Source of the DNA: Xenophilus azovorans DSM 13620
GTDB taxonomy: Bacteria > Pseudomonadota > Gammaproteobacteria > Burkholderiales > Burkholderiaceae_C
Length of the DNA: 64,000 nt
Assembly (NCBI RefSeq): GCF_000745855.1
Contig: NZ_JQKD01000024.1
Location: forward strand, 1-64,000
Direction: 5' to 3'
Shown: positions 21,113 to 41,829 of the stretch, in pieces
Layout: each line of letters begins with the position of its first letter
How positions within the stretch are numbered: the stretch's first letter is position 1
Position numbers and translations under genes: made by a program
Notes under the pieces: generated by a model
Databases searched by the model: none
What the model saw: the letters and a program-made list of their open reading frames with translations, nothing else
What the model was told of the DNA's origin: nothing

Positions 21113-21975
21113 GAGGGTCGTTGTTCGGCGTCGGCCACGAGCAGCACATTGGCGAAGGGCGTGCCCTCGCTCATCGGGATCGGCTGCACCGCGAAGCCCA
21201 GCCGCTGCAGCAGCGCGATCCATTCATCCAGCGTGCGGCCCCAGGTCGGCGAGACCTTGTGGCCGCGGATGCGCGTGACGGTGCGGTCCACCCACTGGCT
21301 GATGGCGAAGCCGCGGCGGCTGGCCGCGTCGCCCACGCGCAGCAGCAGGCGGCCGGGCACGGCGCGCTCGCAAGAAGACGCCGGGCCGCCCCAAGGCTTC
21401 TTGTCCCCCTTGGGGGGCGGGCTGGGCGCAGCCCAGCCTCGGGGGCGGTCGGACGCACCGCGCAGCAGCGCGTCGCGCACGCGGGCCAGCACGCCCTCCT
21501 GCGCGGCATGGTCGACGTAGTGCAGCACGTCGAGGATCACCACCACGTCGCAGGCCGGGAAGACGGCGCTGCACATGTCGCCGCACACCAGCGTCGGCAC
21601 GGGCCGGATGTGGCCCACGGCGCGGCGGGCGCGCTCCACGTCGCGCGGCATCAGCTCGATGCCGGTGTAGACGGGCTCGGCCGGCGTCGGTGCCCAGGCC
21701 ATCGGCCAGGCGCCGTCGCGCTGCATCGCGGCCGCGCTCGCCAGCAGGTTGGCGAACAGGCTCTGGCCGGAGCCGATGTCCAGCATGCGCGGCCGCGCCG
21801 GCCCGATCAGCCCGCGCGAGACGATGCCGCGGAAGGCCGGGTCCCAGCCCAGCTTGCCGCGGGCGAAGTGCCAGCCGAAGTTGCCGGACTGGCGGTACGG
21901 CGCGGTGGCCTGCGCATGCAGGTCGCGCCAGGCGGCGTCGGGCGAGAGGCTCTGGGGTTGGGCGATGGCGTTCAT
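21109..21975 (-). CDS. SAM-dependent methyltransferase with an in-frame R1 repeat
   Basis: 288 residues with the SAM loop MLDIGSGQ (64-71) and the VVVILDVLHYVDH core. In aryl-polyene loci the methyltransferase methylates the aryl head group. Residues about 176-202 (PRGWAAPSPPPKGDKKPWGG and flanks) are encoded by a copy of the dispersed R1 repeat. They interrupt the fold between VRDALLRG and PGRLLLRVGD, where homologues would have a direct link. The frame stays open, so the protein probably tolerates a surface loop there. The start ATG overlaps the deacetylase stop by 4 bases. Confidence 0.85.
   Translation of the reverse strand: MNAIAQPQSLSPDAAWRDLHAQATAPYRQSGNFGWHFARGKLGWDPAFRGIVSRGLIGPARPRMLDIGSGQSLFANLLASAAAMQRDGAWPMAWAPTPAEPVYTGIELMPRDVERARRAVGHIRPVPTLVCGDMCSAVFPACDVVVILDVLHYVDHAAQEGVLARVRDALLRGASDRPRGWAAPSPPPKGDKKPWGGPASSCERAVPGRLLLRVGDAASRRGFAISQWVDRTVTRIRGHKVSPTWGRTLDEWIALLQRLGFAVQPIPMSEGTPFANVLLVADAEQRPS
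21371..21446 (+). repeat. R1 multi-hairpin repeat, copy inside the methyltransferase gene
   Basis: Stem 1 is CAAGAAG (21371-21377) with CTTCTTG (21397-21403), and its loop contains GCCGGGCCGCCCCA. Stem 2 is CCCCC/GGGGG and stem 3 is GGGCTG-GGCG-CAGCCC. The order is the same as at 41754-41829. The copy is antisense to the gene and translated in frame as part of it. Confidence 0.8.
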
Positions 21976-22826
21976 TCGTCGATGGGTTCGCGCAGGGCCT
22001 GGGGCAGCGTGACCGAGCGCAGGCCCTGGCGCTGCAGTTGCGCCAGCAGCGGCGGCAGCACCTCCAGCACCACCGGCCGGCCGGCCGCGGTGCGCGCCGC
22101 ATGGCCGTCGTGCAGCAGCAGGATGTCGCCGGCGGCCAGGCCGTCGGCCAGCCGTGCCAGCACTTTGGCGGCGTCGCGCTCGCGGGTGTCGAAGCCGCGC
22201 CGCGTCCAGCTCACCAGCAGCAGGCCCAGGCGGTGCAGCACGGGCGCGAGGAAGGGGTTGCGGAATCCTGCCGGTGCCCGGAAGCAGGTGGGGCGCTCGC
22301 CGGTCACGGCCGCGATCATGTCCTGCGCGCGGGAGATCTCGGCCGCATAGCCGCGCGGCCCGAGGACGGAAAAGTTGTGCCGGTGCCGCGCCGTGTGGTT
22401 CTGGATGCTGTGGCCGCGCGCCAGGATCTCGCGCGCCAGTGCGGGATGCGCCTGCACCCGCTCGGCGATGCAGAAGAAGGTGGCGCGCTGGCCGGCCGCG
22501 TCGAGCAGGTCCAGCACGGCGGGCGTGACCCCGGGCTCCGGCCCGTCGTCGATGGTCAGCGCGACCTCGCCGCGCGCCGCCGCGGCGGCCGGCAGCCGCG
22601 TCATGTTCTGGCCCAGCCAGCGGCTGCGCGGCGTCAGGCCGATGGCGGTGATGGCCGCATGGTTCACCACCACCGCGCCCAGCGCCCAGGGCCAGGCGCC
22701 GGGCACCGCCACGGCCGCCGCGACCGCGCCGAAGTGCAGCGCGGCGCTGACGCGCAGGAAGGGCGGCGCGCGCCAGGGCGGCGGCGGGGCGGTCGGGGCA
22801 AGGGTGTTCATGGCGGCCGCCCGCAT
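21972..22826 (-). CDS. polysaccharide deacetylase (NodB-domain) protein in the aryl-polyene operon
   Basis: 284 residues. The N-terminal 70 residues hold two hydrophobic segments (FGAVAAAVAVPGAWPWALGAVVV and neighbours). The NodB domain follows with ALTIDDGPEPG (metal Asp pair), the NHTARH His pair, CFRAPAGFRNP and a late LLLHDGH. All metal and catalytic positions appear intact. Such enzymes remove N- or O-acetyl groups from glycans; here it may process the sugar placed by the nearby glycosyltransferase. Two ATGs are possible (22826 or 22811); the first leaves 3 bases after the exporter stop. It overlaps the methyltransferase start. Confidence 0.83.
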   Translation of the reverse strand: MRAAAMNTLAPTAPPPPWRAPPFLRVSAALHFGAVAAAVAVPGAWPWALGAVVVNHAAITAIGLTPRSRWLGQNMTRLPAAAAARGEVALTIDDGPEPGVTPAVLDLLDAAGQRATFFCIAERVQAHPALAREILARGHSIQNHTARHRHNFSVLGPRGYAAEISRAQDMIAAVTGERPTCFRAPAGFRNPFLAPVLHRLGLLLVSWTRRGFDTRERDAAKVLARLADGLAAGDILLLHDGHAARTAAGRPVVLEVLPPLLAQLQRQGLRSVTLPQALREPIDE

Positions 22827-22829
22827 TCT

Positions 22830-41101: not shown

Positions 41102-41731
41102 ATGCGCAACGTCCACCTCATCGACCACCCCCTCGTGCAGCACAAGCTGACGCTGATGCGCCGCAAGGACGCCTCCACCAACAGCTTCCGGCGGCTGCTC
41201 AACGAGCTGTCCACCCTGATGGCCTACGAGGTCACGCGCGACGTGCCCATGCAGGAGATCGAGATCGAGACGCCGCTGGAGACCACCACCGGCAAGGTCA
41301 TCGACGGCAAGAAGCTGGTGTTCGTCTCCATCCTGCGCGCGGGCACCGGCATCCTCGACGGCATGCTCAGCGTGGTGCCGGGCGCGCGCGTGGGCCACAT
41401 CGGCCTGTACCGCGACCCGAAGACGCTGACGGCCGTGGAGTACTACTTCAAGATGCCCGGCGACATGCACGAGCGCGACGTGGTGGTGGTCGACCCGATG
41501 CTGGCCACCGGCAACTCGGCCGCCGCCGCGGTGGAACGGCTCAAGGAGCTGAACCCGAAGTCCATCAAGTTCGTGTGCCTGCTCACCTGCCCCGAGGGCA
41601 TCAGGACGATGCAGGACGCGCACCCCGACGTGCCGATCTACACCGCCGCCATCGACCGGCAGCTCAACGACCACGGCTACATCCTGCCCGGCCTGGGCGA
41701 CGCGGGCGACCGGATCTTCGGCACCAAGTAG
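41102..41731 (+). CDS. upp: uracil phosphoribosyltransferase
   Basis: 209 residues, the normal Upp length. The PRPP loop is [19 protein letters not shown], and the uracil-binding end has [17 protein letters not shown]. It makes UMP from uracil and PRPP. In URC organisms this step feeds the cyclohydrolase-like enzyme, so here it serves both salvage and catabolism. The ATG at 41102 is chosen; an in-frame TTG at 41087 would add five residues. Confidence 0.95.
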
Positions 41732-41753
41732 CGCAGGCGCGGGCCGCGGCTCT

Positions 41754-41829
41754 CAAGAAAACGCCGGGCCGCCCCAAGTTTTCTTGCCCCCCGCGGGGGG
41801 CGGGCTGGGCGCAGCCCGGCCCTGGGGGC
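41754..41829 (+). repeat. R1 multi-hairpin repeat, intergenic copy
   Basis: Stem 1 is CAAGAAAAC (41754-41762) with GTTTTCTTG (41778-41786), around the GCCGGGCCGCCCCA loop. Stem 2 is CCCCCC/GGGGGG and stem 3 is GGGCTG-GGCG-CAGCCC. It fills the gap between the convergent upp and acetyltransferase genes, where it could act as a terminator. Confidence 0.8.

Follow-up and report, generated by a model that had tools for sequence, protein, structure and literature searches.

The hairpin that recurs in the window (the whole 64,000-nt stretch analysed, G000:C21) is best read as a mobile, non-autonomous hairpin element, roughly 76-84 nt long, whose fold is needed for mobility and which is probably identical or closely related to the betaproteobacterial repeat BRE; we assign this reading a probability of about 0.66. 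The original prediction had described three copies sharing a loop core, and reading of the letters confirmed all three at the positions given there, with a 14-nt core common to them exactly:

21371-21446, forward strand: copy 1, type C, in the methyltransferase gene (reverse strand, about 21112-21975), in frame, 27 extra residues
21371-21379, forward strand: outer arm X of stem 1 of copy 1, CAAGAAGAC, letters read directly, 8 of 9 pairs formed with 21395-21403
21380-21394, forward strand: loop of copy 1, GCCGGGCCGCCCCAA, its first 14 nt being the core, exact in 89 genomic copies
21395-21403, forward strand: inner arm X' of stem 1 of copy 1, GGCTTCTTG, letters read directly
24187-24262, reverse strand: copy 2, type C, stem CGCGCTGC/GCAGCGCG, in the exporter-like gene (22830-25292, reverse strand), in frame
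41754-41829, forward strand: copy 3, type C, stem CAAGAAAAC/GTTTTCTTG (the common one), flanked by convergent genes (codon-usage class), letters read directly
41763-41777, forward strand: loop of copy 3, GCCGGGCCGCCCCAA, read directly and found by the core search

The element is built from an outer arm X, a near-invariant 15-nt loop and an inner arm X', the reverse complement of X. Next come a CCCCC/GGGGG hairpin that hardly varies, another hairpin that covaries, and GGGGGC at the end. Stem 1 is paired in all three window copies, but the statement that its arms always pair was slightly too strong, as copy 1 contains one A.G mismatch. In the loop of copy 2 the final A is replaced by G, and copy 3 lies so close to a reverse-strand gene that only 2 nt separate it from that gene's stop codon (TCA, 41832-41834); the site orthologous to copy 3 was not recovered in the congener loci. 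The proposed gene identities held for the methyltransferase (Pfam match Methyltransf_11, E 2.4e-5), but the exporter is backed only by an MMPL match under the curated cut-off. Folding the three copies as single DNA segments gave z-values of -1.22, -1.40 and -2.29 relative to shuffled sequences. This extra stability is so modest that structure is not provable from single folds, and it is the comparison among copies that proves it. Likewise, the number of core matches in the window with two mismatches allowed (10 versus 7.77 expected) is not unusual, being reached or exceeded in 28 of 100 shuffles.

Genome-wide, the exact core GCCGGGCCGCCCCA occurs 89 times (44 forward, 45 reverse) in the source genome (G000, a 6.54-Mb draft in 132 contigs), as compared to 2 occurrences of the reversed, uncomplemented control, so that the further copies on which the original prediction depended do exist. 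The 89 copies have a mean GC content of 75.9% and were sorted into types A, B and C by simple sequence patterns, the assignments differing slightly between two classifications. The consensus folds of types A and B consist of separate hairpins, the two ends of the element being unpaired with each other. As judged by eye, type C copies often lie at stop codons and type B copies at intrinsic terminators. Type B copies follow terminator-like hairpins with T-tracts (L003, L021, L022, L042, L044, L063), and most of these have a T-tract plus CAT or GT repeated at their right end. This motif occurs up to three times per site (two direct, one inverted), and inspection for a target site duplication of the kind made by classical MITEs revealed direct repeats of TTTTTCAT or TTTTTGT in type B.

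The arms of stem 1 vary between copies in a paired manner. When the arm is read from one base past the core, the contiguous Watson-Crick stem averages 6.5 bp versus 1.8 bp with shuffled flanks, and among 47 distinct 8-nt arms 6.87 of 8 positions are paired (G.T counted as a pair) versus 3.88 in 1000 shuffles, the maximum of which was 4.64. Pairs 2, 5, 7 and 8 each show all four Watson-Crick types in at least 8 cells, and wobble is rare, with 4 G.T in pairs 1-6 across the 89 copies. For the 29 type C copies all five covariation measures lie above those of 500/500 shuffles; here there is little variation in stem 2, and the covariation of stem 3 includes some wobble, bearing out the paired change that had been proposed for it. 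In the 32 type A copies four of the five measures exceed most or all shuffles, the exception being the measure of further pair types, which lies below them (497/500 shuffles at least as high). Type A stem 1 exhibits two-sided changes at 6 of 7 pairs and no wobble cell, and 47 of its 218 cells are unpaired, largely in a subtype with arms like GAGCGC(A/C)GC. Together with eight copies that have weakly paired arms, GCGC(A/C)GC/GC(A/G)AGC, these unpaired cells indicate that a perfect stem 1 is not strictly required. The earlier suggestion that a folded form is selected or copied is thus well supported by covariation relative to shuffles in types C and A.

The copies have been inserted into pre-existing sequence. 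At the site of copy 1 the unit is absent in 14/14 congeners (net difference 81, 78 or 75 nt), and at that of copy 2 in the 13/13 congeners recovered, the difference being 81 nt in 17 of 18 loci and 84 nt in one. Hence, the segments are not conserved protein sequence of the orthologues recovered, in agreement with the original prediction, and the additions are in frame in both genes, though 81 nt correspond to 27 residues relative to most relatives rather than to about 26. The cleanest site, L036-1500, is empty in 29/29 loci from 14 genomes, each differing by exactly 78 nt, and its pre-insertion sequence can be read as GTGTGTTCC / TTGTATGCC, the slash marking the junction. A second copy 918 nt away (L036-2418) corresponds, depending on the relative, to an insert of 72 nt at 16 loci and of 81 nt at 13; at most other sites the net insert amounts to 75-87 nt. 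Of 12 loci compared at a tandem pair, 10 differ by the 168 nt of the pair, and the remaining two, which come from G003, have a longer intervening sequence. One copy in L035 corresponds to 78 nt relative to 20 of 33 loci, with a 53-nt gap in the other 13. At one site G014 is filled with the same stem and G007 is empty. G014 also has two more insertion sites, of 87 and 81 nt. The 87-nt site holds a G000 copy at the same place (stem GCTTCACC/GGTGAAGC versus GCTTCGCC/GGCGAAGC) and is empty in five congeners, a pattern that may reflect shared ancestry with recombination, losses, or repeated insertion. The idea that the insertion contributed only X', with X belonging to the host, was ruled out at L036-1500, where the 78-nt insert contains 8 of 9 bases of X; at the second G014 site the outer two paired bases are host sequence. 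For several copies (e.g. L047, L011) the flanks are too rearranged for an empty-site reading, and comparing core spacings by eye in the near-identical pair G009/G014 yielded no usable polymorphic insertion.

A large share of the copies is carried in frame within genes. We scored codon usage over 240 nt per side, independently of annotation and after training on 49 long open frames; the resulting classification placed 36 of 89 copies in frame inside a gene, with all six frames being used, one of them only once. The remainder comprises 23 copies with one coding flank, 11 on the same strand but shifted (including 8 same-strand copies with clean flanks), 6 between convergent genes, 5 in the same phase with a stop, 5 unclear cases, 2 at contig edges and 1 between divergent genes. 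Depending on the frame, the unit is free of stop codons in 69 to 87 of the 89 copies, and from their reading frames the in-gene copies are predicted to be translated with the host protein. Genes with insertions include core genes that we take to encode valyl-tRNA synthetase and MurD. Two different biotin carboxylase-like genes (L016, L005) harbour a copy at about the same protein position, suggesting a tolerated loop. A further group of loci (L035:3726-3800; L299, L310, L335; L325, L336) contains a short upstream reading frame that is formed by a version of the core (MSAAPGRPKQARTAVRSTEV... in L035). This frame ends where the next gene starts and, at two loci, has hardly changed between species. 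It is possibly a leader peptide, maybe tied to the origin of one element subtype.

Copies that descend from the same insertion behave differently from copies that arose independently. We collected 59 copies from 60 stretches of five congeners, allowing two loop mismatches, and grouped them by their flanks; nine groups with 19 pairs, all type C and at least one with an indel, made up the ortholog set, two upstream-reading-frame groups being left out. Changes were counted over copy pairs, so the counts are not independent events: in ortholog pairs the changes were one-sided in 31 cases, two-sided in 2 and two-sided broken in 6, as opposed to 813 one-sided, 1414 two-sided and 382 two-sided broken changes among the type C paralogues of G000. 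Pairing is thus lost between orthologues but for the most part retained among independent copies. Both two-sided ortholog changes fall into one group, and a further one distinguishes the G014 copy from that of G000 at a single gene, so that change on both arms after insertion is not nil. On the whole, the fold seems to serve spreading and to be unneeded once the element is inserted.

On this basis we propose that insertion at terminators, at the starts or ends of genes and in gene interiors is how the element spreads. Inside genes it would be mainly the frame-keeping insertions that persist, the GC-rich unit being stop-free in most frames. The step that requires the fold would be mobility itself. 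A putative factor, probably a protein, would recognise the hairpin, which at this stage is probably single-stranded DNA and not RNA; the factor may respond to the sequence of the loop but mostly to the shape of the stem. Once inserted, a copy would decay as neutral sequence.

Were the element a conserved functional RNA or a terminator with its structure selected in the host, the location of type B copies at intrinsic terminators and of many type C copies at stop codons, judged by eye, would be expected, and one congener has a terminator where G000 has the element; moreover, the bprJ region of Bordetella, in which BRE is located, is transcribed (PMC3110155). However, Rfam 15 gives 0 matches at the gathering score in the window, and a lax threshold gave one weak match in 4 loci, away from the elements. 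Orthologous copies lose pairing, and with 36/89 copies read in six frames within genes a fixed RNA role is unlikely there. We therefore regard host selection of the structure as an unlikely explanation, although some copies may be used locally as terminators. Less probable still is mobilisation by a TnpA-REP (RAYT) transposase, which would make the hairpin a REP element, a possibility suggested by its short palindromic, high-copy nature and by one Y1_Tnp gene in G000. A GTAG tetranucleotide was found at the stem 1 foot or the right end in 0/89 copies, and CGTC or its complement GACG only in scattered copies, at most 6/89 at any foot or end. Y1 transposases are expected to contain an HUH motif, and the sole G000 match (L031:1123-2103) reads H-F-R at that position; it is located about 13 and 18 kb from the two copies on its own contig, and the gene looks domesticated or dead from its sequence. 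Its surroundings contain AT-rich AATTGGGGTCAGATT sequence. Across 89 genomes of the same family Y1_Tnp presence is not linked to the number of exact cores (p 0.54; median 6 in the 71 genomes with and 4 in the 18 without it). Among the genomes with at least 15 copies 19 have Y1_Tnp and five, with 16-38 exact cores, have no match, bearing in mind that a distant homologue could be missed in drafts; conversely, 13 Y1_Tnp genomes lack an exact core. The search for a REP-type transposase thus found a gene whose presence is unrelated to copy number, and examining Y1_Tnp in these 89 genomes revealed no mobilising enzyme for it.

A different question is whether stem 1 is renewed at each move, the outer arm being acquired or synthesised and the inner arm copied from it by fold-back synthesis, in which case the palindrome would arise by templating instead of by selection on individual pairs. 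Five type A copies (L004, L011, L036, L050, L077) have identical 48-column bodies and stems that differ at 2-6 of 8 pairs, 34 of the 38 stem differences being two-sided Watson-Crick changes. Had these stems changed by ordinary point mutation and subsequent compensation, the bodies ought to carry changes as well, so that the pattern is unexplained on that view. The lack of any wobble cell in type A stem 1 points in the same direction, as do type B stems, which differ by a coordinated block (CATC/GATG versus GTC/GAC) that cannot arise by one point mutation and which, in 52 near-identical pairs, show 50 two-sided, 3 one-sided and 0 broken differences. Yet these five type A copies were picked out: across the full set of 62 type A pairs whose bodies show no more than two differences, the tally is 118 two-sided, 81 one-sided and 48 broken differences. 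In the 32 type C pairs selected in the same way 25 one-sided differences outnumber 9 two-sided ones (1 broken), which counts against our preferred explanation as well. Stem and body distances are correlated (Mantel rho 0.31 for type A, 0.43 for C and 0.24 for B), indicating that stems are partly inherited, and at the cleanest site X lies within the insert. A stem copied from the target was considered because X resembles the 16 nt to the right of the element more than shuffles do in type A (6/2000) and type B (0/2000). This variant was dropped, as the similarity is weak in type A without T-runs (90/2000) and is gone in in-frame type A (785/2000), in type C minus the common stem (355/2000) and in all in-frame copies (553/2000). 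Renewal of stem 1 is accordingly a doubtful though not implausible reading. Its stronger form, in which each insertion writes its own palindrome, one arm being new and the other templated on it before or during integration, so that shape is inherited and sequence renewed, is about equally doubtful and offered tentatively.

The mobile hairpin is concentrated in one family: the exact core is present in 74/89 same-family genomes as opposed to 5/59 genomes from other families of the order. Element matches are also carried by replicons of Azoarcus, Burkholderia and Paraburkholderia. In two loci from Burkholderia and Paraburkholderia replicons (L474, L477) a variant occurs whose right flank starts with TTGTTTCAT in both cases, the stem in L474 being GTCAGCCTCC/GGAGGCTGAC. 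A Rhodoferax antarcticus plasmid has one copy in an annotated Fic family protein, with the reading frame open throughout. Searching a phage collection with one type A query gave no match. In IMG/VR the query 16-mer was found in 66 stretches; once duplicates and copies near contig ends were dropped, 25 of 64 placed matches had a contiguous stem of at least 6 bp, and over a dozen matches consist of the 16-mer without the element body. A related-looking element with a different loop around AACCGGCTTTGCCGGGCCG, composed of a stem ACACGC/GCGTGT plus a CCCCC/GGGGG hairpin, is located in G007 (L180) at the site orthologous to L046, a position occupied by a type C copy in G000 and by a terminator in G013.

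The element described in the original prediction is real, but the prediction had overlooked that a very similar repeat was named in 2011. This Beta-proteobacterial repeat element (BRE; Hot et al. 2011, BMC Genomics 12:207, PMC3110155) is 75-91 bp long and GC-rich, occurs in tandem or singly, mostly in intergenic regions with some copies wholly in coding sequences, and is suspected to be mobile. It was reported from Comamonadaceae (Polaromonas, Delftia, Acidovorax, Rhodoferax, Verminephrobacter), Bordetella and Azoarcus, its GC content in Bordetella being 63.7-78.9% with a mean of 69.0% (PMC3110155). Our element agrees in length (inserts of 75-87 nt at most sites), in GC content, which falls within that range and above the Bordetella mean, in arrangement, with a tandem pair and in-frame copies, and in distribution across the family and the Azoarcus, Burkholderia and Paraburkholderia replicons. 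It is thus probably BRE, as compared by published description and not by sequence. The published BRE section contains no sequence, fold, covariation, empty sites or reading frames (PMC3110155). In the openly licensed literature the exact core sequence gave no match, and no further BRE paper was among the matches listed. What seems to be new here is the stem covariation, the contrast between paralogues and orthologues, and the scale of in-frame carriage.

REP elements are recognised as a folded single strand, as is proposed for the present element. Compared with the REP/RAYT system (PMC3733652, PMC2817692), both are small palindromic high-copy repeats, but our element lacks the tag tetranucleotide and an association with that transposase family, is a longer unit and is frequently found in frame in genes. 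The contrast between covarying paralogues and decaying orthologues provides a simple way to separate a fold required for mobility from one needed by the host, and the question of how orphan repeats move becomes testable in a laboratory strain. Among the systems compared, the closest in behaviour are the Rickettsia palindromic elements (RPE) of alphaproteobacterial intracellular bacteria, about 100-150 bp long with terminal inverted repeats (PMC10969869, PMC2229807, PMC3767692). Both are short palindromic elements that insert in frame into many unrelated protein genes, whereas the element described here measures about 80 nt, has unpaired ends and combines a near-invariant loop with a variable stem. 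Protein-coding palindromes are best known from Rickettsia, and the present element adds a comparable case in free-living, culturable bacteria.
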